Virus record (IMG/VR): IMGVR_UViG_3300010430_000255
Span: 1-36,217 of that record
DNA: 36,217 nt
Source: a virus
Strand: one strand, 5' to 3'
In this document: one piece after another, positions 5,723 through 36,107 of the stretch
Position numbering within the stretch: the first letter of the stretch is position 1
How the letters are laid out: each line of letters opens with the position of its first letter
Notes under the pieces: model-generated
The model's input: the letters and a program-made list of their open reading frames with translations, nothing else
Told to the model about the DNA's origin: nothing
Database searches by the model: none
Made by a program: the position numbers and the translations under genes

Positions 5723-5986
5723 CTAGTCAATCACAAAGAAGTCAAAAAACCAAGACACGTATACCTGGATTGGAAGGCCGGCCAAGTGAAGGATCCACAG
5801 AAGCCATGCAATGCCATATGCTAGAAGAATAATCCAGCCACACATCAGCACCATGTATGGCACCATCTTGTGTCTTTGTCTCAAGTCATCAATGTGCTTG
5901 AATATCGCTTTGAAGTGCAGCAAGGAAAGACCAGACACCACTATTGCTGCTGAAGTTGTCAGCCACATGAACCAGTTCATCATCAT
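5723..5986 (-). CDS. Small two-helix membrane protein
   Basis: An 87-residue protein with two hydrophobic segments, about residues 5-25 (WLTTSAAIVVSGLSLLHF) and 42-65 (VPYMVLMCGWIILLAYGIAW), separated by a short basic loop (DDLRQRHK). Several start codons in a row (GTG GTG ATG ATG ATG) precede the first Asn, so the exact start between 5992 and 5980 is open. It is the first gene of the minus-strand block. Length and topology fit a holin or another small membrane protein, but no family signature is visible and no endolysin is found beside it. Confidence 0.6.
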   Translation of the reverse strand: MMMNWFMWLTTSAAIVVSGLSLLHFKAIFKHIDDLRQRHKMVPYMVLMCGWIILLAYGIAWLLWILHLAGLPIQVYVSWFFDFFVID

Positions 5987-6133
5987 CACCACGTGTTATA
6001 TTCTGAATAAGGTAACACTTCCGTAACTTTATTTTCAAAAAAAAGTTCTCAAGCCTGAAACCATATGGTTCAGGTGAAGTACATACAATAAATCATGCCT
6101 TTATTGTTCTTCATTTTAACCATTCAGAATATC
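5987..6133. promoter_or_regulatory. Divergent control region
   Basis: A 140-base A/T-rich region between the two divergent blocks, so it must hold promoters for both directions. It contains CCGTAACTTTATT at 6021-6033 (a close copy, CGGTAACTTTATT, lies at 9388-9400), an A8 run at 6037-6044, an imperfect inverted repeat at 6054-6074, and TACATACAATAAATC just before an ATG at 6095. Read on the minus strand it also carries ATTCAGAATAT ahead of the first late gene, matching the plus-strand leaders. Confidence 0.6.
6054..6074. promoter_or_regulatory. Candidate operator (inverted repeat)
   Basis: Arms CCTGAA and TTCAGG flank ACCATATGG, giving a near-perfect dyad with one unpaired A. It sits midway in the divergent region, where a regulator could control both blocks. 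Shorter TGAA-N4-TTCA dyads at 10683-10694, 12656-12667 and 32626-32639 may be half-strength relatives. Confidence 0.45.
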
Positions 6134-6136
6134 ATG
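6116..6136 (+). promoter_or_regulatory. Conserved 5-prime leader, copy 1
   Basis: TTAACCATTCAGAATATC followed directly by ATG. The same 21 bases occur exactly at 6596-6616 and 12689-12709, and shortened or diverged forms precede other genes. This copy decides the start of the first early gene at 6134 rather than at the in-frame ATG at 6095. It has no Shine-Dalgarno sequence. Confidence 0.75.
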
Positions 6137-6577
6137 ACCAACCAAGAAGCCTTGGCCTATCAGCACACACATCAGGATTGCCTTGACAGACTCCAATCTG
6201 TTCTTCCTGGCATGGACATCACAGCCGGCCTTGCACAGATCATTTCATTGCTGGCCACCATCAATCTTGTGTTCCATTGGGACAAGGTAGAACCTACCAA
6301 TGAAGATGACATCACCATCTTCTATGGCTGGATTCCTGACAGGACCAATCCAAGGAAAGACATCAGCAACAGCATTGGATCATCACCAATGCACGCTGCA
6401 CTGATCTGCATATTGGATTGTTATGACCTTCAACAGACCATCATCAACAAGAGAAGAAAGAAGGCCATGACTTCATTTCATCAGAAGATGGCCGATGCAT
6501 TTAGAGAAGAAGGCCTGACTGAACGTGCTGAAGAAGTACTGAAGCATGCCAAGGAACACGGCCATGACATCAAGTAA
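6134..6577 (+). CDS. Hypothetical early protein
   Basis: A 147-residue soluble protein, the first gene of the plus-strand block. The start is placed at 6134 because the conserved leader ends exactly there; an in-frame ATG at 6095 would make the leader part of the coding sequence. The N-terminal half is mixed alpha/beta; the C-terminal third is a charged helix (KRRKKAMTSFHQKMADAF). I recognise no family. First genes in early blocks often code for host takeover or anti-defence factors, but nothing specific supports that here. Confidence 0.65.
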   Translation: MTNQEALAYQHTHQDCLDRLQSVLPGMDITAGLAQIISLLATINLVFHWDKVEPTNEDDITIFYGWIPDRTNPRKDISNSIGSSPMHAALICILDCYDLQQTIINKRRKKAMTSFHQKMADAFREEGLTERAEEVLKHAKEHGHDIK

Positions 6578-6595: not shown

Positions 6596-6616
6596 TTAAC
6601 CATTCAGAATATCATG
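6596..6616 (+). promoter_or_regulatory. Conserved 5-prime leader, copy 2
   Basis: An exact copy of the 21-base leader at 6116-6136, ending in the ATG at 6614. It is preceded by ATTAAACCTTTCACC in the 36-base gap after the previous gene, which may hold a promoter. Confidence 0.75.
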
Positions 6617-7111
6617 CCTAACAACCAACGTTTTTCAATCTACAGAATACCAAGGCCAGCTGATGCCAAAAGCATGGCCACCATGTTCACAGGTGGAGTA
6701 CCACAGACCTTGGCCACACTGGCCAGCTTCCTGACTGTGTACAAGTCACTTCCAATCCTTGGATACTTCAACCAGTTACGCCATGACTTCATGTTGTGGA
6801 TGATTGATTGCAAGAAGGCCGGCACAATTCCACACGTGTACATTGACATCAGTGGTCCATGTGTTAACTGGTACAGGTCTGACACTGGTGAAATCATCTT
6901 CAGAACTACCATCCACACTGACCGATACCTGATGAAGACTGTGCACTTTGCTGCCAGCTTTGGTGTCATCATTGACAATGCATGGCATGGTGACCGTGGT
7001 GAAAGATCAGGAACAGGCTGGTGGTATGATGTCCCTGAACGTGATCCAATGATCAGCATTCCATTCACTGACCTTTCAACCAGTACACAACAGGTGGCAC
7101 AGCATGCTTAA
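6614..7111 (+). CDS. Hypothetical early protein
   Basis: A 165-residue protein beginning right after a conserved leader. It has a hydrophobic helix near residues 30-45 (LATLASFLTVYKSLPIL), a beta-rich middle with HVYIDISGPCVNWYRSDTG, and a Trp-rich GTGWWYDVPERDP near residue 135. There is no clear membrane segment and no known motif. Its stop overlaps the next gene by 8 bases (ATGCTTAA), so the two are probably translated together. Function unknown. Confidence 0.65.
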   Translation: MPNNQRFSIYRIPRPADAKSMATMFTGGVPQTLATLASFLTVYKSLPILGYFNQLRHDFMLWMIDCKKAGTIPHVYIDISGPCVNWYRSDTGEIIFRTTIHTDRYLMKTVHFAASFGVIIDNAWHGDRGERSGTGWWYDVPERDPMISIPFTDLSTSTQQVAQHA

Positions 7112-9371: not shown

Positions 9372-9477
9372 CATACTGGCTTCTGTCCGGTAACTTTATT
9401 CAGTGTTTTCAGCCGGAACCAAATGCTTTCCTGTGCCATATACAATGATATAACCATTTAGTTACCATTTAATCATG
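9372..9477 (+). promoter_or_regulatory. Intergenic promoter and leader region
   Basis: CGGTAACTTTATT at 9388-9400 repeats the element at 6021-6033. TATACAATGATATAACC around 9440-9455 looks like a promoter -10 region. The leader is a diverged double form: ACCATTTAGTT then ACCATTTAATC before the ATG at 9475. It probably starts the second early transcript. Confidence 0.55.
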
Positions 9478-9810
9478 CCTTTATCAACCACAGCACCTGA
9501 AGACACGCATGCCCGTGTCAACACATCAACCAAGGTCTGTGAATGCTGTGGCCAAAGCTTTGAAACCTCAACAGGAAGAAGAGGCCGGCCACGTGTTTAC
9601 TGCAATAAGCGATGTAAAACGCTTGCAGGTTTATGGCCATTCATGGAAGACATCCTGAATGATCCAGACTTCAAGCCAACCAAAGCCAAGGCCATGCAGA
9701 TCAGAAAGAACCTGTGGGCTATTGGAAACAGAATAACACACAAACATTCAGAAAAGAAATCATGCCAAGATCAAAATTTATCAAGTGTGAACCACTGCCA
9801 GAAGACCTGA
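9475..9810 (+). CDS. Small zinc-binding protein (early)
   Basis: A 111-residue basic protein. CECCGQSFETSTGRRGRP then VYCNKRCKTLAG gives two Cys-x2-Cys/Cys-x3-Cys pairs, a treble-clef-type zinc site that is common in small phage nucleic-acid-binding proteins. The layout is close to the late gene at 3213-3437. It begins at an ATCATG start after a leader of the AACCATTTA type. Its last 49 bases overlap the start of the next gene in another frame, an unusually long overlap, but the next gene has its own leader-like start sequence. Confidence 0.6.
   Translation: MPLSTTAPEDTHARVNTSTKVCECCGQSFETSTGRRGRPRVYCNKRCKTLAGLWPFMEDILNDPDFKPTKAKAMQIRKNLWAIGNRITHKHSEKKSCQDQNLSSVNHCQKT
9741..9764 (+). promoter_or_regulatory. 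Diverged leader inside the preceding gene
   Basis: CAAACATTCAG followed by AAAAGAAATC and ATG. It keeps the ATTCAG core and the ATCATG end of the conserved leader although it lies within coding sequence, and it fixes the start of the next gene at 9762. Confidence 0.55.
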
Positions 9811-10376
9811 CAGATGAAGATCCTGGAATCATGTATCCAATGGAATTCATGTTCCAGTTAACCAAAGAACATGACCACGTGGTGCTGCAAAGATGGGAAG
9901 ATGCAATGCGCCACCTGAAGGTTGAATTCAGGAAGCTTGAATTCTGCACACCACCAAGGATGTATGGCAACAGACTTGCACACATGGTCAGTGAATATGA
10001 AGTGCAAGACAATGATGAACACCTTGGAAGGAAGTCTGACTTCTGGACACTGCCAGATCCTGTTCATGGATACAGCCAAGCACTTCAAAAAGTCTACGTG
10101 TACAAAGTCATCTTTGGCCGGCTGATGTGCTGGTACATGCCATGTGCCAGATGCTTTGGCCGTGGATGTTTCGTTGGAAGGAAAGCAGGATACACCACAA
10201 AAGGAATGGGCATCCATTTACTTGGTGACCACACAAGAATCTGCTGGCGTTGCTGTGGCTTCCAGACTGATCCTGGCTGGCACAGAAGACTTGAACAAGG
10301 CACCAACGTGTTCCAGCTGTGGCGCGAGTTCTACAAGAAGGGACAGGTGGAAAAGCCACGTGCAATTTCATATTAA
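9762..10376 (+). CDS. Zinc-finger-containing hypothetical protein
   Basis: A 204-residue protein. The N-terminal 100 residues are acidic and helical. The C-terminal part has CARCFGRGCFVGRKAGY and, 20 residues on, RICWRCCGFQ, giving two CxxC-type pairs, arranged like a zinc ribbon of the DnaJ-related CxxCxGxG type. It is probably a nucleic-acid or protein-binding factor. The ATG at 9762 is chosen because of the leader-like sequence directly before it; an in-frame start at 9714 lacks that. It overlaps the upstream gene by 49 bases. Confidence 0.65.
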   Translation: MPRSKFIKCEPLPEDLTDEDPGIMYPMEFMFQLTKEHDHVVLQRWEDAMRHLKVEFRKLEFCTPPRMYGNRLAHMVSEYEVQDNDEHLGRKSDFWTLPDPVHGYSQALQKVYVYKVIFGRLMCWYMPCARCFGRGCFVGRKAGYTTKGMGIHLLGDHTRICWRCCGFQTDPGWHRRLEQGTNVFQLWREFYKKGQVEKPRAISY

Positions 10377-10602: not shown

Positions 10603-10685
10603 CTGTTTTGTGTTTATTCTTTTTCCTGATTGGCATCCTAGCGCTTGCCTTTCAGTCGCCAACACGCAGAAGCAGAAGGAAGTGA
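10578..10685 (+). CDS. 35-residue single-span membrane peptide
   Basis: A very short reading frame: a polar MFSDQ head, one hydrophobic segment of about 20 residues (FAVAVLCLFFLIGILALAF), and a strongly basic tail (QSPTRRSRRK). The charge pattern predicts an N-out, C-in single span. The frame overlaps the upstream gene by 25 bases and its TGA is part of a TGAA-N4-TTCA dyad at 10683. No Shine-Dalgarno sequence. It could be a small membrane effector; the very clear membrane plus basic-tail pattern makes chance unlikely but not excluded. Confidence 0.5.
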   Translation: MFSDQFAVAVLCLFFFLIGILALAFQSPTRRSRRK

Positions 10686-10751
10686 AACCATTCAGTTATC
10701 TTACAGTGTAACCTTTTACTTTCATTAACCATTCAGAGTACCAACACCATG
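10683..10751 (+). promoter_or_regulatory. Dyad plus conserved leader, copy 3
   Basis: TGAAACCATTCA at 10683-10694 is a 4-bp dyad (TGAA/TTCA). About 30 bases on comes TTAACCATTCAGAGTACC from 10725, a leader with a longer spacer before the ATG at 10749. TGTAACCTTTTAC between them is a possible promoter element. The same order, dyad then leader, is seen at 12656-12709. Confidence 0.6.
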
Positions 10752-11282
10752 ACTTTATCTTCAATCAACAGTACCAATTCAACAGTGCCAACACAGGCCA
10801 TCTTCTATTTTGCATTGATGACCACCATCAAGTCAATACGCTTCATGGCCACTGCCCTGGCAGAACAGCTTCAGATTGAATCCAATGAAGTGGATGACAC
10901 GTGTATCAACTTCAGTGTTGACTGTCTTGATGCAGATGCCATGTTGTACAAGAACCTTGAACAGCTGCACGCTACACTGACACAGATGCCACATCCAGCT
11001 GAAGATGTTGAAGTGCTTCCTGATCCAAGGATGATCAAGCCATCACCTGATGACCACGTGAACCAGCTGGTGGAAGAACATTCAACGGTCAATGGCATCA
11101 GCCAACTGGAAGATGCACTGGTTCTTATTCTTGGTGTTCCAGATGCAATGGTGTCATATGAACTTCCACAGGCCAATGAACCACAAGGTGCATGTGAACT
11201 GAACGGCTTCCAAGAATTGTATGAACTGGAAGTGCTAAAGCGAAGAAGGAAGATGGCCAACGAACCACAGATGAATCTTTAA
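10749..11282 (+). CDS. Hypothetical acidic early protein
   Basis: A 177-residue acidic protein. It starts with a Ser/Thr-rich stretch (LSSINSTNSTVPTQ), followed by helices (FYFALMTTIKSIRFMATALA) and a Pro- and Asp-rich middle (EVLPDPRMIKPSPDDH). The C-terminus is a helix ending in KRRRKMANEPQMNL. The start follows a leader copy. It is the last gene before a clear hairpin (11289-11319), so it ends an early transcript. No family or motif recognised. Confidence 0.6.
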   Translation: MTLSSINSTNSTVPTQAIFYFALMTTIKSIRFMATALAEQLQIESNEVDDTCINFSVDCLDADAMLYKNLEQLHATLTQMPHPAEDVEVLPDPRMIKPSPDDHVNQLVEEHSTVNGISQLEDALVLILGVPDAMVSYELPQANEPQGACELNGFQELYELEVLKRRRKMANEPQMNL

Positions 11283-11374: not shown

Positions 11375-11620
11375 ATGAAAGACAAGAACACCATGGAAGA
11401 ACTGCTTGCAAAGGTGAACAGCATAGTTGAACAGCACGGCAAAGCAGCTGTTGCTGAACGGCTGGAATGTTCATCACAGGCCATTGGCAAAGCCATCAAG
11501 GACCATGACAACCCGTTCAAATATTTTGGCCTACGTGTCAAGATACTTGGTGCATATGGCGTTGAAGTTGATGGTCCATTCTTTACATTCAAAACTAAGC
11601 TATTCAGAAAACAATCATGA
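11375..11620 (+). CDS. Helix-turn-helix regulator (Cro-like size)
   Basis: An 81-residue protein. Residues 20-42 (HGKAAVAERLECSSQAIGKA) fit a helix-turn-helix of the Cro/YdaS kind, in which a helix of the form xxVAERLxxSxQAI reads DNA. No other obvious small transcription factor is present except the terminase small subunit, so this is the best candidate to bind the dyads in the divergent and leader regions. It starts at ATGAAAGAC after CAGGTTTCAC and follows a terminator by 55 bases, so it likely has its own promoter. Whether it represses or activates is not known. Confidence 0.65.
   Translation: MKDKNTMEELLAKVNSIVEQHGKAAVAERLECSSQAIGKAIKDHDNPFKYFGLRVKILGAYGVEVDGPFFTFKTKLFRKQS
11600..11619 (+). 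promoter_or_regulatory. Diverged leader at an overlapping start
   Basis: CTATTCAGAAAACAATC then ATG. It keeps ATTCAG-A-rich-ATCATG although it codes for the C-terminus of the upstream HTH protein, and it sets the start of the next gene at 11617 (ATGA overlap). Confidence 0.55.
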
Positions 11621-12654
11621 CAAAAGAAAGAAACTGGAAGACAATTCCACAACTGGCTGACAGCTACCAGCCAACATCATTCCTGAAGTATGGATGGATC
11701 AGAAGACTGCTGGCCAGACTTTTTGTGTGGCTGGCTGAACCTGTGCTTGGTCCTATACTGGAAACACATCACTGCAGGATTGGCACACTGGATGGCTATA
11801 CCAGCAAGAACATGTCAGAAATCACGGCCATGAAACTGACAGATGGAGCACTTGAAAAAGCGATTGAAAAGAATGAATTCCATCATGACCAGCTGGCCAT
11901 GAATATCAAACACGTCTGTGCACTTCTGCAAATTGAAAAACTATCAGAAGAACCAGCTGGCCATCCACGTCACAAAAAGATGACCATTCCAACCTATGGT
12001 TCAAAGTGGATGACAGAAACCAGAAACTGGATTGCCAGACTGGAAGGCACACAGAAATTGCACAAGGCTGCCTTCAGCAAGGTGCCACAGATGGATCAGT
12101 TCCTTGGTGTCATCATGAAGAAGATGGATTGGAAGCTGGTGGATGAACCTGGTGCAAGGCCTGAAAATCTTGAAGCTTGGACCTGTGGCGTGTTGGACAT
12201 CATGAACCGTTCAAGTATGGCCATGGAAAGGCTGCTTGGCTTGGAACTGAATGATGATCCTATGAAAGACAAACTGACCAAGCTGCCTGACACTGAACAC
12301 TTAGGTCCAGCCGTACAAGAACTGGAATTGATGGTTGGTGACATCAACACGGCACTTGACATGCAGGTGGCACAAGGTGAAGCTGATGCATACAGCAATC
12401 GTGTTGAATACATTGACCATTGGTGCAATCTGGTTGCAACATGCCTTGGCCTGACAATTGGCAAGGATGACCAACAGATTGAAGTCATCACATCATTGAC
12501 CATTGAAAACATAAAGGTTGACATGCACAAGGCCTTGATGCAAAGGAATCATGATGTGAATGAATACCTGAAGTGGAAACGCCAAGTGGACAACATCACA
12601 CAAGAACACCATGGCCGGCTTCATGACCTGGATGGCATGCACAACATCACTTGA
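11617..12654 (+). CDS. Hypothetical large helical early protein
   Basis: A 345-residue protein, the longest in the plus-strand block, with no recognised family. Near its N-terminus is a hydrophobic, aromatic stretch (WIRRLLARLFVWLAEPVLG, residues 28-46) that could be a membrane-associated amphipathic helix. The rest is almost entirely helical and charged, with repeated helix pairs such as VQELELMVGDINTALDM. The start overlaps the HTH gene as ATGA, so the two are co-translated. It could be a structural or regulatory partner of replication, because the next genes are recombination and replication factors, but nothing shows this directly. Confidence 0.65.
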   Translation: MTKERNWKTIPQLADSYQPTSFLKYGWIRRLLARLFVWLAEPVLGPILETHHCRIGTLDGYTSKNMSEITAMKLTDGALEKAIEKNEFHHDQLAMNIKHVCALLQIEKLSEEPAGHPRHKKMTIPTYGSKWMTETRNWIARLEGTQKLHKAAFSKVPQMDQFLGVIMKKMDWKLVDEPGARPENLEAWTCGVLDIMNRSSMAMERLLGLELNDDPMKDKLTKLPDTEHLGPAVQELELMVGDINTALDMQVAQGEADAYSNRVEYIDHWCNLVATCLGLTIGKDDQQIEVITSLTIENIKVDMHKALMQRNHDVNEYLKWKRQVDNITQEHHGRLHDLDGMHNIT

Positions 12655-12709
12655 TTGAAACCGTTCAGTTCACTACCTTTGGAGATCATTAACCATTCAG
12701 AATATCATG
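12651..12709 (+). promoter_or_regulatory. Promoter, dyad and leader, copy 4
   Basis: TTG at 12651-12653, 20 bases, then TACCTTTG at 12674-12681. This matches the Bacteroidota TTG-N19/20-TAnnTTTG promoter form. Between them is the dyad TGAAACCGTTCA (12656-12667). TTAACCATTCAGAATATC then ATG starts at 12689, so the leader would be almost the whole 5-prime untranslated region. The dyad would lie under the polymerase, as an operator should. Confidence 0.6.
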
Positions 12710-13081
12710 CCTTTAGAAATCAAAACCATGGAAGCAACCTTGGCAGAACTGGCCAAGCCAATTCCAGCTAAGTACCAGAAGGTGAACAGCTTCACCAACA
12801 AGCCCTTCTTCCCTGTCAACGTTTACAAGAAAGCCCTGTACTATCGCGTGCCACAGCATTCTGTGCAATGCAATTCACACCTGTCTGGCATTTACTGCGT
12901 GACAGACGTGACAATTGAAATTGCTTGCAGTGATGGTGTGCTTGTGCGTAGTGCCAACGGCTTTGAACAGCTGGAACTTGAAAAGCAGATGCGTGGTGAT
13001 CCTGCCACAAACTCTTTTGCACAGGCTTTTAAGTTGGCCTGTCAACAGTTTGGACTTGGCAAAGCAGAAGCAGGTGAATAA
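12707..13081 (+). CDS. Rad52/DdrA-like single-strand annealing protein
   Basis: A 124-residue protein. The order of features fits the Rad52-type annealing domain of the DdrA kind: LAKPIPAKYQKVNSFTNK at the N-terminus, a Y-xx-ALYYRVP segment, beta strands with GIYCVTDVTIEIAC, then GDPATNSFAQAFKLACQQFG, the conserved C-terminal helix (usual form GDPxxNAxxxAxxRAxAxFGLG). It ends just after that helix and lacks the usual tail, so it is a short form. It would anneal complementary single strands in phage recombination or replication. It sits directly before the replication initiator and near a RusA-like resolvase, a typical phage recombination set. Start fixed by an exact leader copy. Confidence 0.65.
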   Translation: MPLEIKTMEATLAELAKPIPAKYQKVNSFTNKPFFPVNVYKKALYYRVPQHSVQCNSHLSGIYCVTDVTIEIACSDGVLVRSANGFEQLELEKQMRGDPATNSFAQAFKLACQQFGLGKAEAGE

Positions 13082-15066: not shown

Positions 15067-15082
15067 AAGCTGAACAGAAAAG

Positions 15083-15116
15083 AAGAAGGCCAGCTGGTGT
15101 GACAGCTGGCCTTCTT
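15083..15116. terminator. Bidirectional terminator between the two blocks
   Basis: AAGAAGGCCAGCTG (15083-15096) pairs perfectly with CAGCTGGCCTTCTT (15103-15116), a 14-bp stem with a 6-base loop. On the minus strand it is followed by CTTTTCTGTTC, a good U tract. It lies where the plus-strand block ends (15066) and the minus-strand block ends (15203), so it likely stops both. Confidence 0.85.
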
Positions 15117-15147
15117 ACCATTCAGAATAACACACCATCCAATCATG
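15117..15147 (+). promoter_or_regulatory. Leader copy after the terminator
   Basis: ACCATTCAGAATAACAC then CCATCCAATC and ATG at 15145. It repeats the first half of the leader exactly. The frame that follows (15145-15396) is antisense to the last late gene for most of its length and does not look like a protein, so the site may drive an antisense RNA or be a remnant. Confidence 0.45.
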
Positions 15148-15202
15148 CCTGGAAGGAAAGTGGGTTGGCTTATATTATACACATATCACACTTTTGTTGC
15201 AA

Positions 15203-15574
15203 TCATGGCTGGTCTTGCATCTGGTCCAGCCGGCCACGAAAGTATCCATCAAGGTTCTGAAGGCCATCCATTGTCAGTGAATAAAGGCTGTCCATCCTTT
15301 GACGGTTGCCACGGTTGTTGGCTTCAATGGCCTGTGTGTTTTCATCTTGACCAACCTTCAACTGTTGCAATGTGTTTTGCACATTGGTCAGTATAGGTGC
15401 CAAGGTCTGTGTCTGGTTATTGACTGCCACTGTGGTTTCAGCTGGCGTTCCACCAGTCTTGGTTGCATAGGTGAAGCTACCCACAGGCACACCAAGCACA
15501 AAGGCAAACAACAGCAATACATACTTTGTTGGTAAATGGAAAGTGATGCCACCTTCCTTCTTTTCTTCAGACAT
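15203..15574 (-). CDS. Membrane-anchored coiled-coil protein, last late gene
   Basis: A 123-residue protein. After a charged head (MSEEKKEGG) there is one membrane segment (residues 17-38: YVLLLFAFVLGVPVGSF), then a Thr- and Gln-rich link and a long helical coiled coil (LTNVQNTLQQLKVGQDENTQ). The charge pattern predicts N-in, C-out. One membrane anchor plus a periplasmic coiled coil is the usual build of inner-membrane spanins, and being last in the late operon is common for lysis genes, but no outer spanin or endolysin is beside it. It is preceded by the 81-bp repeat at 15602-15682, so it may have its own promoter. Confidence 0.6.
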   Translation of the reverse strand: MSEEKKEGGITFHLPTKYVLLLFAFVLGVPVGSFTYATKTGGTPAETTVAVNNQTQTLAPILTNVQNTLQQLKVGQDENTQAIEANNRGNRQRMDSLYSLTMDGLQNLDGYFRGRLDQMQDQP

Positions 15575-15601: not shown

Positions 15602-15682
15602 TTTAAAAAGTAAGTTGGCGCCCTATGCGTTCGCACGGCCGGCACATGTGTTTTACATAACTGCCACCTAATTTATTAAAGT
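15602..15682 (-). repeat. 81-bp intergenic repeat, copy 1
   Basis: Shared with 28129-28209. The 58 bases at 15602-15659 match with one difference (T at 15630, A in the other copy). The rest keeps ACTTTAAT-N3-TTAGG with a fixed spacing on the minus strand. The core is full of CpG (GGCGCC, TGCGTTCGCA, GGCCGGC) in a CpG-poor genome and has several small palindromes. It sits 28 bases before the start of the last late gene and overlaps only the stop of the gene before it, so a promoter or RNA element is likely. Confidence 0.85.
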
Positions 15683-18600
15683 CAACCACCAAGTGGCTTC
15701 CTGGTGATTACAAATTCAAAGTTGCTGGCTGTCCTGTTCTGAACTGCAACAGCGTTTCCAACTCCCCATGACCAAATTCTGCCACCACTGCATCCAACAT
15801 ATCTTCTGACACCATCATCATCAAACCACTTGACAATGCCTGAATTGTTGGTTGGTGCATTGGAAGCAACAATGACAGCATCAACTGGATTGTTCACAGT
15901 GATTGGATTGTACTGGTATATTCCTGAACCAATTACCCTGAAGGCCACATTGTTCAAGAAGTCAATGTCACCACCTTTGTACTCAAGTCCACTGGCACCT
16001 TGCAACCCTTCAACACTACCGTCAGAAACATCAAAGCGATTCAAGCCACCACTTTGCCAGTGCATGATGAATGATCCACTGTCATATGAACCAATTGCAA
16101 AAGGTCCACCACTGAAAGATGACAGGCCAGATCTGGCTTCATAATTCCACAAGGCACCACCATCCAAGTTGTATCCATACATTCTATTGTTGAACAAGGC
16201 AGCTGTGTGATTGCCAACCACGATGATGTCAGCTGTGGAATGTACATTGATGGTTTCCAGATCACTGAAGCCTGTGTCAAATAGTTCAACAAAGCCTTGG
16301 CCATCTGAATCAGACCTGTACACCTTGCCACCTGTGCCAAGGAAGTACAGCTGGCCATTGCCCTGGTGGCGTGCACCAGCAATGATGGCATATGAATCAA
16401 GATCCAGATCTGTCTTCTGTTCATTGAAGTCATCATCAATGATATACAAGAAACCATCATCAGCTGACATTCCCCACATTGGACCAGACAAGTCATCAAT
16501 CCATGGTGGCACTGTGCTGGCCACAGCTGCTGGATCACTGCATTCTATACAAACACCATCACGCGCACCAAGTGACTGGCCAGCATGCACCACTGTCATC
16601 CGTGGCTGTTCATCTGCCTGTGTGACTTCCACTTCAATCTTCCACACCAGTTCTTCCATGGTGATGTCAAGATCAATGCCGGCTGTCTTTGTGTCTTCCT
16701 GGATGGTGCTGCCTGACCATGACAGCTGCCTGATGGTCCCTGTCCATTCACCAATGAATCTGAATTGAGAAGTGCCAACAGGGAAGACAAAGGAAAGCGT
16801 GGCCATGTTACCCTTGAAGGTGCCACCACTTGTGACACGGTCACCTTCATCAACAATCCATTCTGGTCCATTAAAGGATGTCTTTTTGTGCGTCTGCAAC
16901 GTATATACTGCAGCTTCACCAGAAGTGAAGCCTGAACCTGAACCAGCACCTGGAACAGCTGACACATCCACCTTGGCCACAGTTGAATTCCATGGCGCAC
17001 ATTCAAGAATGTTGGTGACCTGACACACAGCTGATGACACATATTGTGAATCCAACATCAAGCCAAGGCCGGCCATTCCACCACCACCTGAACGCTTGGC
17101 CAGACCACGCAACACTGAATCAGAAAGCCACATCTGGTGTGTGTCAAAACCAAAGGCCACAAGGTTCACTTCACATGCTGAATCAATCATCTTCCTTGCA
17201 TGTGCTGCAAGGTCTGACTTGATCAGCTGGAATCCATATTGTTCAACACCATCAACACGTGCACCAGCTGATCCATTGAAGTACCTGCCAGCTGACTTTG
17301 GCGTGGCTGCTGCCAGTGCTTCACTTCCCATTATATCCAGCACAGTGCCACTTCTTGGCTGCCACATCACCAGCCTGTTGAATGTGGTGTCACGTCTTAT
17401 GGTATGATAGCATTCACCATCAAAGTCACCACTTCCTGGAATGACACCTGAACCGCTTCCTGGCACCTGACCTGAACCTGATCCAATGGCACCACTGCCT
17501 GATCCACTGGCTGGTTCTACATATTCAAAATGTGTGACTGAATGAACAGTGTCAAAAGAATTGCCACTTCCAACGGTTGACCTGTTGGCTGATGCTGGTG
17601 GTGGTAAATTATCCCACTTGTAAATAGTGTCAACATTGTACGCTGCACCATAAATGGTGGTCAGGTCTTCAGTCAGATCCAAGTGCCAGATGTTTGCCGT
17701 GCTGTCGCCATTGGTATATCCACCTGTGTTGTTGCCAATGGCTTTCCACATGACATTGGCATCATTCCAGTATCCAAGCATGACATTGGTATTGTCCACC
17801 ACAACACAGTGTGCCACATCATTGGTGTCTGTTGGATATTGGAATTGGATGGTGCCACCACTGTCATATGCCCTGCACGAATAGTCATAAGGGACATAAA
17901 TGTATCCATCAGCCGGCCTGAAGAAAGGATGACCTGGCCACTGCAAGCTGCTTACAATCAAAGATTCACTTCCACCATCATCCGAATTTTCATACAGTTC
18001 ACCAGATGCTTGCCTGACAGTGTAATACATCAAGCTGTTGGCATAGTCAAAGCAGATGCCAAATACATCAGTCAATCCTGTTCTAAGAACTTCTTCTTGC
18101 AAGCCGAACCTGTCACACCTTCTGACATCACCAACAAAGAAAAGCGTGGTATAAAGCATCTGCTTTTCCCTGTGCCACGCCACCTGTTGCAATCCTTTGG
18201 ATGGACCATAAACATGAACAAGGAAGTTTGGTGAACCATCATCATCCACATACATGATGGCATCATCAGATGACCGTGAATAATACAGACCAGACGTTGG
18301 AAAATCTTCTTTGTGAACACTACATGCTGAATCATAGTTGGCACCATTGCCAACAGAATACCAGTGTACAGTTGTGGTGAAGGTGCCACTGCTTCCAAGT
18401 TCTGACAGGCATGCATCACCAGATGTGTGGCTGCTGTCTGTTCCTGACACATTCCATGCAGCTGGTTCAGCTGTGCCTTCCTCCCAAACACGGCCACGTA
18501 TACTGCCATCAGAGAAACGACAAAGCCGGCACCAGTAACCTGTATTGACATTCAGCGTGAAGCTGTCATTGTCCATGTTGTTGTAGCTGCCACCACCTTG

Positions 18601-18945
18601 TGCTTCCCACAGGCCAATGTTGTTGGCCGTGAAACCAAGTTCAAGAAGGTAACCAGTTTCAGCACCACTGGCACCACCTGCATTGATCCAACAGCTGAAG
18701 GCAGAATTCAAGCTATCAGCTTCCACCAGAACAAGGATCTGCTGATTGTCACCATTGGCAGCATCCAGCACCAGCCTGTTCCTTCCTGCACCACTTTTCT
18801 GAATCTCTAAAGCTTGGCCACCTGGTGAACTGCCATCAGTCACAACTTCATATGCAACATTTGATGCATTGCCAATCTGTGACCAACCTGATGGAATACC
18901 AGCACCAGTTGAAACTTCGCTAAAGTCGTATGTTATTCTTGCCAT
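15682..18945 (-). CDS. Receptor-binding tail protein, modular
   Basis: A 1087-residue virion protein, the largest gene. Residues 1-215 look like a concanavalin/LamG-type jelly roll, a carbohydrate-binding fold. Residues 220-450 form a beta propeller of the YWTD kind (for example LTDVFGICFDYANSLMYYT). A Gly-Ser linker (480-507) follows. Residues 510-800 match the preceding tail gene (18958-19884): QMWLSDSVLRGLAKR, NILECAPW, then VWKIEVEVTQADEQPRMTV. Residues 800-1087 form a second propeller-like part. It most likely binds a surface glycan as the tail-tip fibre or spike. No catalytic residues of a depolymerase are evident. A SD-like AAGGAAG precedes the ATG. Confidence 0.8.
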   Translation of the reverse strand: MARITYDFSEVSTGAGIPSGWSQIGNASNVAYEVVTDGSSPGGQALEIQKSGAGRNRLVLDAANGDNQQILVLVEADSLNSAFSCWINAGGASGAETGYLLELGFTANNIGLWEAQGGGSYNNMDNDSFTLNVNTGYWCRLCRFSDGSIRGRVWEEGTAEPAAWNVSGTDSSHTSGDACLSELGSSGTFTTTVHWYSVGNGANYDSACSVHKEDFPTSGLYYSRSSDDAIMYVDDDGSPNFLVHVYGPSKGLQQVAWHREKQMLYTTLFFVGDVRRCDRFGLQEEVLRTGLTDVFGICFDYANSLMYYTVRQASGELYENSDDGGSESLIVSSLQWPGHPFFRPADGYIYVPYDYSCRAYDSGGTIQFQYPTDTNDVAHCVVVDNTNVMLGYWNDANVMWKAIGNNTGGYTNGDSTANIWHLDLTEDLTTIYGAAYNVDTIYKWDNLPPPASANRSTVGSGNSFDTVHSVTHFEYVEPASGSGSGAIGSGSGQVPGSGSGVIPGSGDFDGECYHTIRRDTTFNRLVMWQPRSGTVLDIMGSEALAAATPKSAGRYFNGSAGARVDGVEQYGFQLIKSDLAAHARKMIDSACEVNLVAFGFDTHQMWLSDSVLRGLAKRSGGGGMAGLGLMLDSQYVSSAVCQVTNILECAPWNSTVAKVDVSAVPGAGSGSGFTSGEAAVYTLQTHKKTSFNGPEWIVDEGDRVTSGGTFKGNMATLSFVFPVGTSQFRFIGEWTGTIRQLSWSGSTIQEDTKTAGIDLDITMEELVWKIEVEVTQADEQPRMTVVHAGQSLGARDGVCIECSDPAAVASTVPPWIDDLSGPMWGMSADDGFLYIIDDDFNEQKTDLDLDSYAIIAGARHQGNGQLYFLGTGGKVYRSDSDGQGFVELFDTGFSDLETINVHSTADIIVVGNHTAALFNNRMYGYNLDGGALWNYEARSGLSSFSGGPFAIGSYDSGSFIMHWQSGGLNRFDVSDGSVEGLQGASGLEYKGGDIDFLNNVAFRVIGSGIYQYNPITVNNPVDAVIVASNAPTNNSGIVKWFDDDGVRRYVGCSGGRIWSWGVGNAVAVQNRTASNFEFVITRKPLGG

Positions 18946-25330: not shown

Positions 25331-26809
25331 TTAGGTTAACTGTACGCGAAAATCAACATGGTGAATCAGAAGTTGTTCACCATCACCAGCCAGATTGCTA
25401 CCAAAAGCAACAAGTGGCATGGATGGCAAGGCGATTGATTCAGGTTTATTGATCTGTATGATTTCACCAGATCCATCATCAACTTCCAAGGCACCAACGG
25501 TGTTGAATGCTGTCAAGATTCCATCAGGGCATTCACCCCAAAGCAGATTGTACCATTCCTGTGTGGTGCTACCAGTGAAGGCTTCATCTTCTTGGAACTG
25601 ATACTGGATGATGATTTCATATTCATGTGTGACAAGCACACTGCTGTTGTGGACATCACGAATGTCATCCACATTGTCAACTGCAGAAGGCTGATCAACT
25701 GGTGCAATCCTGCACCACCTGACTGGATCACCAAAGACATTTTCAAAGTCATAACGGGATTCAAGGCCAAGCAAGTGCTTTGTCACCAGTTCATTGACAC
25801 GCCATACACCACCATTGGTGTGGTTGGCCAGAATGCCTTCAATGTATGTCTTCAGGGTTTCTAGTTTCACGGCCTGTGCTACATTAAAAATTAAAGATTC
25901 ACATGGTTCAGGTTCACCAGATCCACTTCCTGGCACTTCACCTGAACCGCTTCCAATTACGCCACTGCCACTGCCAGCTTCACCAGACCCTGATCCAATG
26001 ACACCACTGCCACTGCCGGCTTCACCACTACCTGATCCAATGACACCTGAACCGCTTCCTGGTACTTCACCACTACCTGATCCAAATTCACCTGAACCAC
26101 TTCCAATGTCACTGCTTCCTGAACCGGCTGGCAACAGTTCTTCATATGTCAGCCGTGTACCACCATTGAACATGGCATCAATGTCATCTTGACTGAACAG
26201 ACCACGCTTGAAAATAGCCTGTGCCATTGCACCAATGAATCCAAAAGTACCATCACCACCAATGTGGAAGAAGTCATTCTGGCTGCCAATGTCTGTGCCG
26301 TTGAATCCATAGGCAACTGTACCTTCAGACACACCATCAACAAAGGTTTCAATGTTGCCATCCACATCAATATTGAAGACAACATGATTGGCTGCACCAA
26401 AGTCAAGTCCAATGTTGGCAAGTGCATTGGCATCACGTGTTGATCCATCACTGATGAATGGCCGTGACTGGCCACCACCAGCTGTTGTGGTCCTGACCTG
26501 TAAAGCATAACCTTCCTCTGTGGTGCTGAATGCACCTGTGCTGGCCAGTGCTTCCACCAAGTTGTTGTTGGCTGGAAAGATCCAGAAGGCTGCTGAAAAG
26601 TCAGCCAGACCAATCTGCCATGGCGTACTGCTTCCAGTCTTGCCAATCCATGTACTGGCCAGCAGGTTGATCTGTGTGCCCTGTGCACCAGTGTCATACG
26701 TTGGTGCTGTGCCACTGGCATCTGGCAAGTGGTTACCATTGCCACTTGCATCATTGCCATTGCCATCAAAGTCATGTGCGCTTATCACGCCAGTTGGATC
26801 AAAAGCCAT
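25331..26809 (-). CDS. LamG-domain / tail terminator fusion
   Basis: A 492-residue protein of three parts. Residues 1-225 are a LamG/concanavalin-like domain (ISAHDFDGNGNDASGNGNH at the start; VVFNIDVDGNIETFVDGVSE and GFIGAMAQAIFKRGLFSQDD are hallmark strands of Laminin_G_3). Residues 229-300 are a Gly-Ser linker with a 14-residue repeat. Residues 303-492 look like the tail terminator or completion protein, from size and position between a gp10-like protein and the tube gene (LETLKTYIEGILANHTNG; VTHEYEIIIQYQFQEDE). LamG on a tail terminator would display a sugar-binding domain at the head-tail junction. The join is read as one frame without stop. TGATG overlap with the upstream gene. Confidence 0.7.
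   Translation of the reverse strand: MAFDPTGVISAHDFDGNGNDASGNGNHLPDASGTAPTYDTGAQGTQINLLASTWIGKTGSSTPWQIGLADFSAAFWIFPANNNLVEALASTGAFSTTEEGYALQVRTTTAGGGQSRPFISDGSTRDANALANIGLDFGAANHVVFNIDVDGNIETFVDGVSEGTVAYGFNGTDIGSQNDFFHIGGDGTFGFIGAMAQAIFKRGLFSQDDIDAMFNGGTRLTYEELLPAGSGSSDIGSGSGEFGSGSGEVPGSGSGVIGSGSGEAGSGSGVIGSGSGEAGSGSGVIGSGSGEVPGSGSGEPEPCESLIFNVAQAVKLETLKTYIEGILANHTNGGVWRVNELVTKHLLGLESRYDFENVFGDPVRWCRIAPVDQPSAVDNVDDIRDVHNSSVLVTHEYEIIIQYQFQEDEAFTGSTTQEWYNLLWGECPDGILTAFNTVGALEVDDGSGEIIQINKPESIALPSMPLVAFGSNLAGDGEQLLIHHVDFRVQLT
25910..26125 (-). repeat. Tandem repeats coding a Gly-Ser linker
   Basis: Codes residues 229-300 of the LamG/terminator protein: units GSGSGVIGSGSGEA repeat twice in full (42-base unit), with shorter GSGSGE units on both sides and PGSGSG at the ends. 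Similar linkers occur in 15682-18945 (17425-17508) and 18958-19884. The repeat number could change by slippage. Confidence 0.85.
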
Positions 26810-27364: not shown

Positions 27365-28123
27365 TCAGAAAGGTGCTACACGGTGAACATGCAAGCTGTG
27401 GATCTGGTTTTCAATGTACTTGTCAACAGCCTTTCTGTTGGTCAATGATAGACGATCACCAGACATCTGTGATTCAGTCACACCAATCAATCCTTTATAC
27501 TGCCAACGCAACATGGCAATGACACAGGTGGTGGCCACTTCGCTGATGTCATCAGGCAGAAGTGTCACCACTGCATCATCTTCAAGGCCTGTCAGGTCAG
27601 TGGTGTTCATCACACCATTCCACGTTTCACCACTCCCTGGTGGATCCTGGTCAACTCGCCTGAAACCAGCAAAGGCTTGGCCACGTGTTGGAAGCTTGGT
27701 CAAGTCGCCGGCCAATGTGACCACACAGAATTCTTGCCTTTCACCAAGTGTTTCAGCTTCATCAGCCAAGGCTGCATCAGCATCCAAAGACACCACCTGA
27801 ACAACAGGAAAGTACTTCCAATAATTCCTGTACTTTTGATCAGTGTCAGTGACCACCATGAATTCATCAGCCTTCTTCCAGCTGCCACCTGACGTGAAGA
27901 AGGTGTTGTTCAAGTTGATGATCAGCTTCCTGTTCAGGTATGCTTCAATCTTTCTGGTGATGCTGCCAATGATATGAATGCAAGCTTGCTGGATTTCATT
28001 GGTGTCACCACTTCCATTGTCAGCTTTCAAAGCTGTTGTGATCTTATTTCCAAGCGTATCCATGGCCAGATTGGCCACTTCTTCCATGGTTGTCAGATCA
28101 GTATATGAAGGTGTTCTTGGCAT
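27365..28123 (-). CDS. Head-tail connector (gp6-like adaptor)
   Basis: A 252-residue protein. Its N-terminal helical part has SITRKIEAYLNRKLIINL, the typical signature of gp6/gp15-type adaptor proteins, which form a ring under the portal. A beta insertion (WKYFPVVQVVSLDADAALA) follows and the C-terminus is helical (CVIAMLRWQYKGLIGVTES). It starts 6 bases after the second 81-bp repeat, so it may be the first gene of a transcript that runs through the tail genes. Confidence 0.75.
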   Translation of the reverse strand: MPRTPSYTDLTTMEEVANLAMDTLGNKITTALKADNGSGDTNEIQQACIHIIGSITRKIEAYLNRKLIINLNNTFFTSGGSWKKADEFMVVTDTDQKYRNYWKYFPVVQVVSLDADAALADEAETLGERQEFCVVTLAGDLTKLPTRGQAFAGFRRVDQDPPGSGETWNGVMNTTDLTGLEDDAVVTLLPDDISEVATTCVIAMLRWQYKGLIGVTESQMSGDRLSLTNRKAVDKYIENQIHSLHVHRVAPF

Positions 28124-28128
28124 TTCAC

Positions 28129-28209
28129 TTTAAAAAGTAAGTTGGCGCCCTATGCGATCGCACGGCCGGCACATGTGTTTTACATAGTTTCAGCCTAAAA
28201 AATTAAAGT
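28129..28209 (-). repeat. 81-bp intergenic repeat, copy 2
   Basis: The partner of 15602-15682, with a single difference in the 58-base core (A at 28157), making TGCGATCGCA a perfect palindrome here. It fills almost the whole gap between the TagF-like gene and the connector gene, ending 6 bases before the connector start. The part beyond the core overlaps the last codons and stop of the upstream gene. Confidence 0.85.
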
Positions 28210-32617: not shown

Positions 32618-32639
32618 CAGCCTTCTTGAATGGTTTCAA
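32615..32639 (-). promoter_or_regulatory. Dyad and leader-like sequence
   Basis: Read on the minus strand: TTGAAACCATTCAAG then AAGGCTG and ATG. TTGAA/TTCAA makes a 5-bp dyad with the same ACCA spacer as at 10683, and it contains AACCATTCA of the leader family. It suggests that this late unit shares a control signal with the early units. Confidence 0.5.
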
Positions 32640-35255: not shown

Positions 35256-36107
35256 TCAATAGATGGCCTTTGCTTTCTGCCTTGAATTCCATCTGGCAAT
35301 TGTGCTGAATCGCCACCTTGCCATCATCTGTTTCCTGAATCTTCCACCACGTGAACGCTTTGCATTGTATGACTTGTCAGGCCGGCTTCCTGTGTCCACT
35401 ACGTAGGAACTGACATCCAATGCAACACCAAGTGAACCACGATCCTGACAGTCATACTTGATTGGTGATGAATCATCCTTGATATGGAAGACACTGGCAA
35501 ACCTGTCAATCAGTTGCTGGTGGCCATTGGCAGCTGCAAGTCTTAAAAAGAAATCAACATGTTCCCCACAAGTCTTCAGTCTATAATCAAACCTAACAGC
35601 TTTAAAGACTTTGCGCCTTGCCAAGAAACACATTGGCACATAATCAACAGCCATCCATTCCAGCAATCCTGTGTGATGTTTCTGTATTGGCCTGTTGATG
35701 TGCAGCAAGTTGCCATTTACAAAGAAGATGCCTTCTGAATTAGACCATCTGTTTTTTCCTTTGTCCATCTTCCTGGCTGCCACCAAAGCCAATGATGGTT
35801 CATTGTCAAGGATTGTCATCATACAGTCAAGATTGACATGATTCACCTTCATGTCATCATCAAGCATGAAGATGAATGGTTCATCTGTCTGTTCAATTAG
35901 ATGATTCCTTTTGGCACTGACACCTGAATCTTGTGGCAAAACAAAAGTATCATCAGCATTCCAATATGCTGACTTCTCTACATCACTGTCATCACAGACA
36001 TAAATCCTGGCACCTGGCCACTTTCCTGCAATGATGTTGATGGTATCTTGGCATTCTTTTGGCCTGTTATATGTTGGAATACAAAATGCAATATCCTGAA
36101 TGGTCAT
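35256..36107 (-). CDS. GT2/B4GALNT-like glycosyltransferase
   Basis: A 283-residue GT-A enzyme, first gene after the circle junction. FCIPTYNRPKE opens the fold, GVSAKRNHLIEQT (62-74) and the metal-binding DDD (83-85, MLDDDMKV) follow, and CGEHVDFFLRL (180-190) gives the catalytic acidic site. These are the same three motifs as in 33653-34507, so a gene duplication is likely, now flanking the sulfotransferase. The C-terminal 40 residues are strongly basic (SYNAKRSRGGRFRKQMMARW), perhaps to hold nucleic acid or an acidic membrane. On the circle its start lies 3 bases after the stop of 17-781. Confidence 0.83.
   Translation of the reverse strand: MTIQDIAFCIPTYNRPKECQDTINIIAGKWPGARIYVCDDSDVEKSAYWNADDTFVLPQDSGVSAKRNHLIEQTDEPFIFMLDDDMKVNHVNLDCMMTILDNEPSLALVAARKMDKGKNRWSNSEGIFFVNGNLLHINRPIQKHHTGLLEWMAVDYVPMCFLARRKVFKAVRFDYRLKTCGEHVDFFLRLAAANGHQQLIDRFASVFHIKDDSSPIKYDCQDRGSLGVALDVSSYVVDTGSRPDKSYNAKRSRGGRFRKQMMARWRFSTIARWNSRQKAKAIY

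Follow-up and report, generated by a model that had tools for sequence, protein, structure and literature searches.

What does a short sequence that recurs directly in front of start codons do in a phage in which the genes that follow it are mostly of unknown function? The question is raised by the IMG/VR virus record IMGVR_UViG_3300010430_000255, all 36,217 nt of which were analyzed (referred to as the window) and which carries a 123-bp direct repeat at its ends. On the plus strand, the function of most genes from 6134 to ~15066 is unknown, but a methyltransferase and a DnaD-like helicase loader are among them, and the minus strand encodes structural proteins (by similarity the major capsid protein, portal and terminase); we call the former genes early and the latter late, labels that were deduced from gene content, and some of the gene starts were likewise deduced. 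A search for the host returned no relative among genome contigs, and the remote matches of the portal and of one glycosyltransferase-like protein to Salinibacter phages were rejected as too weak to name a host.

The original prediction reported that the 18-mer TTAACCATTCAGAATATC directly abuts an ATG at exactly three sites, and this holds for the whole window: the plus-strand copies at 6116, 6596 and 12689 precede the start codons at 6134, 6614 and 12707, no further site lies within 3 mismatches of the 21-mer composed of TTAACCATTCAGAATATC and ATG, and 100 dinucleotide shuffles yielded zero occurrences. The PWM scan of the window identified five strong copies (scores 25-30, versus a best score of 17 in 60 first-order Markov sequences), namely the three exact ones, a copy at 10725, where the ATG is 6 nt further away than in the exact copies, and a copy at 15114-15131; the last two had been listed as variants (the latter at 15117). 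Zero spacing is thus confined to the three exact copies, and the ATG as a fixed point is not supported as a general feature. The remaining listed variants (9455, 9741 and 11600 on the plus strand; 5986, 25309 and 32617 on the minus strand) are at chance level by sequence alone (PWM versus Markov sequences), and two of them, 9741 and 11600, do lie within upstream coding sequence, as had been stated.

The leader indeed lacks a Shine-Dalgarno (SD) core (anti-SD pairing of +0.2 kcal/mol at the three exact copies), but gene starts throughout the window show no stronger pairing with the anti-SD than random positions do, so that the absence is genome-wide and was rejected as a special trait of the leader. 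The motif TAnnTTTG, a Bacteroidota-type promoter, does exist at 12674, but as a common leader feature, or as a general promoter, it was rejected as well, because it is found upstream of only one of the three exact copies and is rarer in the genome than expected (13 sites versus ~23). With SD absent genome-wide and TAnnTTTG not enriched, neither accounts for the repeat. The idea that the leader is widespread among phages was likewise rejected: IMG/VR, scanned for exact and gapped matches, gave, besides the relative G001 (see below), only single matches in unrelated contigs. As a separate observation on the starts of this genome, 23 of 38 window genes have a C directly before the start codon, and G is scarce at positions -12 to -16, except -13.

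The copy at 15114-15131 stands at the junction of the convergent early and late operons. That it begins a real gene was considered and rejected: the reading frame is not conserved (it spans 83 codons in the window but 4 in G004), and in G001 and G005 no ATG adjoins the corresponding copy. The following features were found or predicted at the junction:

15114-15131, plus strand: geneless leader copy, directly after the hairpin as read on the plus strand, at the early/late junction
15202-15174, minus strand: sigma-70-like promoter TTGCAA-17-TATAAT (10/12 consensus matches, p ~0.003)
15167-15074, minus strand: proposed antisense RNA, about 94 nt
15135-15150, minus strand: pairing region B of this RNA, complement of the start-codon context, AATCATGCC
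15117-15131, minus strand: pairing region A of this RNA, complement of the leader core, ACCATTCAGAATA
15116-15083, minus strand: terminator hairpin of 14 bp, followed by the U-rich tail CTTTTCTGTT

The promoter-like sequence adjoins the last late gene (15203-15574), its first base coming right behind the stop codon of that gene, and an independent scan of the window recovers both this promoter and the terminator. The 5' end of the RNA was placed ~7 nt past the -10 element and its 3' end within the U-rich tail. About 50 nt between promoter and terminator are complementary to early leaders and start codons; a point against the pairing is that, when the RNA is folded by itself, region A is predicted to be partly engaged in a weak structure. 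Judged by these signals, the 15117 copy is likely to be part of an antisense small-RNA gene on the opposite strand, which the original prediction missed; since the copy is geneless and lies in such a likely gene, a role of the leader as target site is more probable than one in initiation.

We therefore put forward, with a probability of roughly 0.65, a reading in which early genes would be repressed at their start codons by a trans-acting antisense RNA of about 95 nt that the phage itself encodes and that has the shared leader as its target site. The RNA gene would occupy the convergent junction of the early (plus) and late (minus) operons, and its transcript would start near 15167 (minus strand) from its own promoter and end at the terminator hairpin near 15074. 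Two stretches of this RNA would pair in vivo, with or without the help of a chaperone, with the leader core and with the start-codon context, and would cover the translation starts of at least six early genes (6134, 6614, 9475, 9762, 10749 and 12707; perhaps also 11617). Such pairing would block ribosome binding and shut the target genes down together, either at an early-to-late switch or in immunity. The start regions concerned, with the predicted net pairing energies, are:

6116-6146, plus strand: exact copy 1 and start of gene 6134-6577; pairing at 6118-6146, -19.5 kcal/mol
6596-6628, plus strand: exact copy 2 and start of gene 6614-7111; pairing at 6598-6628, -21.7 kcal/mol
9452-9481, plus strand: degenerate leader and start of gene 9475-9810; -22.8 kcal/mol
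9728-9771, plus strand: start of gene 9762-10376, inside gene 9475-9810; -25.3 kcal/mol
10725-10762, plus strand: leader with 2 mismatches, 6 nt before the ATG, and start of gene 10749-11282; -20.4 kcal/mol
11598-11631, plus strand: weak variant and start of gene 11617-12654, inside gene 11375-11620; -13.3 kcal/mol
12674-12719, plus strand: exact copy 3 (12689-12706) and start of gene 12707-13081; -19.9 kcal/mol

When folding costs are counted, the six strongest of the 39 window starts are 9762, 9475, 6614, 10749, 12707 and 6134, all of them early leader genes (early versus late, p 0.0005; this and all other p-values given here are descriptive, as the hypothesis arose while the same four genomes were being viewed). 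The start of gene 11617 is a possible target. Runs in common with the RNA-side copy extend beyond the leader core at gene 9475 (AATCATGCCT) and at gene 9762 (the 13-mer CAGAATAACACAC). Predicted pairing thus supports the variants 9455, 9741 and 11600 and fails to support those on the minus strand at 5986, 25309 and 32617 (-11.3, -9.8 and -2.6 kcal/mol, respectively), which fall inside the late-gene background. The sole late start that also pairs well is 2760, of the minus-strand gene 2167-2760 (-19.2 kcal/mol), with CCAACCATTCAGG located 25 nt upstream of it; this start is a possible extra target of the proposed RNA.

Protein searches and a capsid-protein alignment search of IMG/VR identified three complete relatives, G001 (36,092 bp), G004 (36,080 bp, with a 144-bp end repeat) and G005 (35,934 bp), as well as fragments. 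The complete relatives exhibit essentially the same gene order as the window, with structural proteins mostly 40-70% identical, and the comparison below covers these four complete phages. The search in related phages that had been recommended gave a divided answer: the element recurs at early starts, but the exact window leader was not found in the relatives, each of which has its own repeated leader there (AACACGTTTCACCACTTTAAAACCACAGCATC followed by ATG, plus variants, at five starts in G001; the AAACCATTCAACCAAC type in G004; the AGAACGCGACC type in G005). The core AACCATTCA is common to the window (9 occurrences versus ~1 expected) and G004 (6 versus ~0.6 expected). The nhmmer profile search with the leaders of one phage in the other (window versus G001) returned no significant match; the leaders are thus not detectably homologous, and the link between them consists of position and pairing. 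The leader is kept at orthologous genes, such as 9762 of the window and 2186 of G001 (blastp 2.6e-21) or 12707 and the G001 gene at 35324 (6.6e-5), and the 12707 orthologues have position-equivalent leader genes in G004 (30275) and G005 (34178). To speak of a phage-specific regulatory signal was therefore right in kind, with a sequence that is specific to each lineage, and the earlier reading as a whole is partly supported.

In all four phages the early region closes, opposite the end of the late operon, with an extra leader copy that lacks a conserved ORF. Followed along the late strand, each of the four has the end of the last late gene, then a gap that includes the leader complement, directly beside it a strong hairpin with a folding z of -4.0 to -5.7, and finally a U-rich tail. 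In each phage the RNA-side copy is altered in step with the leader. Scored against random 170-nt stretches, the late-strand sequence between the last late gene and the hairpin is promoter-like in the window (p 0.003), G004 (p 0.01) and G005 (p 0.03), but weak and not unusual in G001 (p 0.6), which counts against the reading; a small-RNA gene with its own promoter and terminator is predicted in the window, with promoter-like sequence in three of the four phages.

Before the pairing tests were run on the four phages, position alone had determined which junction segment and which early starts would enter them. The terminal 50-nt segment has runs of at least 9 nt in common with 6 of 12 early starts in the window, 3 of 16 in G001, 4 of 13 in G004 and 6 of 13 in G005 (p 0.0003, 0.008, 0.0003 and 0.0014, respectively, against random 50-mers from the same genome); at start 28730 of G004 the run in common with the RNA side, AATCATGAGA, again goes beyond the leader core. 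Predicted duplex energies favour, for each RNA segment, the early starts of the phage that it comes from (4/4 phages), and comparison with random segments gave p 0.007 for the window, 0.03 for G004 and 0.01 for G005, while the test for G001 alone was not significant (p 0.19). The predicted duplexes (-17 to -43 kcal/mol) fall between positions of about -40 and +14 relative to the start codon and often comprise two blocks, with variable spacing between the blocks in G001 and G005. The terminal segment is not a "hub", i.e. it is not closer to all starts than the starts are to each other; leaders are as similar to each other as to the terminal segment, and similarity alone may also fit a DNA or RNA element that simply occurs once more at the junction.

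One alternative is an element that acts in translation, the leader itself aiding initiation on mRNAs without SD through its open, G-poor sequence, perhaps with ribosomal protein S1 or a phage factor. In all four phages the leader copies are located 0-17 nt before start codons, the leader of gene 6614 is fully unstructured in the predicted fold, and Bacteroidota as a rule initiate at starts that lack an SD but have favourable adenines and an open structure (PMC6847099). The closest description of a comparable arrangement concerns the SAS/ESAS elements of cluster K mycobacteriophages, a repeated asymmetric motif at the starts of non-structural genes, of which some copies have upstream inverted repeats with a lineage-specific consensus and several phages have one copy away from gene starts; SAS contains an SD core, is positioned 3-7 bp before starts and was interpreted as a translation element, with no antisense RNA proposed (PMC3203893). 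The leader is a different sequence from the SAS motif GGGATAGGAGCCC, does not share its SD core 3-7 bp before starts, and the two are unrelated. We regard a translation element as unlikely, as it leaves unexplained both the geneless copy beside the terminator (4/4 phages) and the matches that continue past the ATG into sequence specific to each target, and as general initiation does not need a private, fast-changing sequence in each phage. The leader may nevertheless also be a good SD-less initiation region, which is compatible with its being a target.

A DNA-binding site, similar to a stoperator or operator, at which a phage regulator bound at gene starts and behind the terminal hairpin would hinder transcription elongation or initiation, strikes us as about equally unlikely. 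The stoperators of L5-type mycobacteriophages (mentioned in PMC3203893) are a precedent for asymmetric sites of this kind, and the copies share one orientation, fall mostly in short intergenic gaps, adjoin the terminator and have a lineage-specific sequence. The small protein 11375-11620 is kept in all four phages (31-40% identity), reveals a helix-turn-helix-like stretch by eye, and is a candidate regulator acting on palindromes that are found in all four phages upstream of several leaders and their promoters and that are possible operators:

6065-6083, 10683-10694, 12656-12667 and 32627-32638, window: palindromes of the TGAAAC-N5-GTTTCA type
3488, 2252 and 35389 in G001, 26493 and 30217 in G004, 28573 in G005: palindromes of the same type in the relatives

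These observations fit a protein-binding site; the leader matches, however, span start codons and vary by target, the two-block matches of variable spacing (G001, G005) fit RNA pairing better than a single protein site, and no regulator with such a role was identified in this analysis.

That the leader is solely a promoter with its initial transcribed sequence, early transcripts beginning at or just before it, is very improbable: a palindrome (TGAAAC-N5-GTTTCA type; TGGAAC in G005) and then a TATA-like -10 precede the first early leader in constant order in G001, G004 and G005, and TACCTTTG precedes the 12689 copy, but other copies lie within coding sequence, those at 6596 and 9741 have no promoter-like sequence, and TAnnTTTG occurs at just one exact copy and below genome expectation. 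The TATA-type -10 lies only a few nucleotides ahead of the first early leader block in the relatives, so that the leader is plausibly the 5' UTR of that transcript, in agreement with the short untranslated region suggested earlier.

An antisense RNA would explain the geneless copy, the terminator beside it, the promoter and the private sequence of each phage, as well as the leader copies inside coding sequence and the matches across the ATG, and is in our opinion the most economical reading of the sequences. Trans-acting small RNAs of the bacterial type are expected to be complementary to the start regions of several distinct mRNAs, as is predicted here. Among known phage RNAs, C4 of P1/P7, an immunity RNA, binds the mRNA that it targets in two places and at one of them covers the ribosome-binding site, at least in part (PMC5320573); the window RNA is likewise predicted to pair often in two blocks over the start codon. 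However, C4 is processed by RNase P from a longer transcript and folds into three stems, whereas the window RNA has its own predicted promoter and terminator, one dominant hairpin (the terminator) and at least six dispersed targets. When the whole window was scanned with Rfam, the C4 covariance model included, no family matched at gathering thresholds, and membership in the C4 family was rejected. The CI RNA of P4 acts on more than one complementary site (seqA, seqC) in the phage's own early region (PMC4825925), but it is processed from the leader transcript under its control, between its two target sites, and causes transcription termination, while the window RNA would come from a separate gene on the opposite strand, where the early region ends, and have start-codon targets; with this different arrangement, membership in P4 CI was rejected too. 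The sar RNA of P22, which blocks initiation of ant translation, and OOP and aQ of lambda are, among others, antisense RNAs that lower phage gene expression, according to the excerpted part of a 2025 review of phage small RNAs (PMC12197685), which describes no RNA with a multi-gene early regulon. Unlike the window RNA, sar, OOP and aQ are cis-encoded with a single target gene each. The best explanation appears to be an RNA that would work like P1 C4 or P4 CI, but with at least six targets and no detected homology to them.

The phage antisense RNAs compared here act on a single gene or transcript each. We would lay even odds on the broader proposal that in this phage family one separately transcribed antisense RNA and a common tag at the start codons of six or more early genes change jointly and fast, giving a private code per phage, and that the system serves as a master repressor or early-to-late switch, possibly also in superinfection immunity. 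If so, one RNA together with a dedicated tag on many early genes would be the RNA counterpart of a master repressor, and the private tag-RNA code would make the specificity of regulation or immunity readable from sequence. The layout itself (a geneless leader copy beside a terminator, at the early/late junction) could serve as a simple search criterion for systems of this kind in other genomes, and raises a new question for other repeated start-associated motifs, e.g. the mycobacteriophage SAS elements.

Two further repeats were observed among the late genes. An 81-nt repeat (89% identical) at 15602-15682 and 28129-28209 precedes the minus-strand genes 15203-15574 and 27365-28123, and is possibly a late promoter or terminator element. 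Gly-Ser-Gly-Ser linker repeats are encoded at 17427-17507 and 25897-26127, within the structural-region proteins 15682-18945 and 25331-26809.
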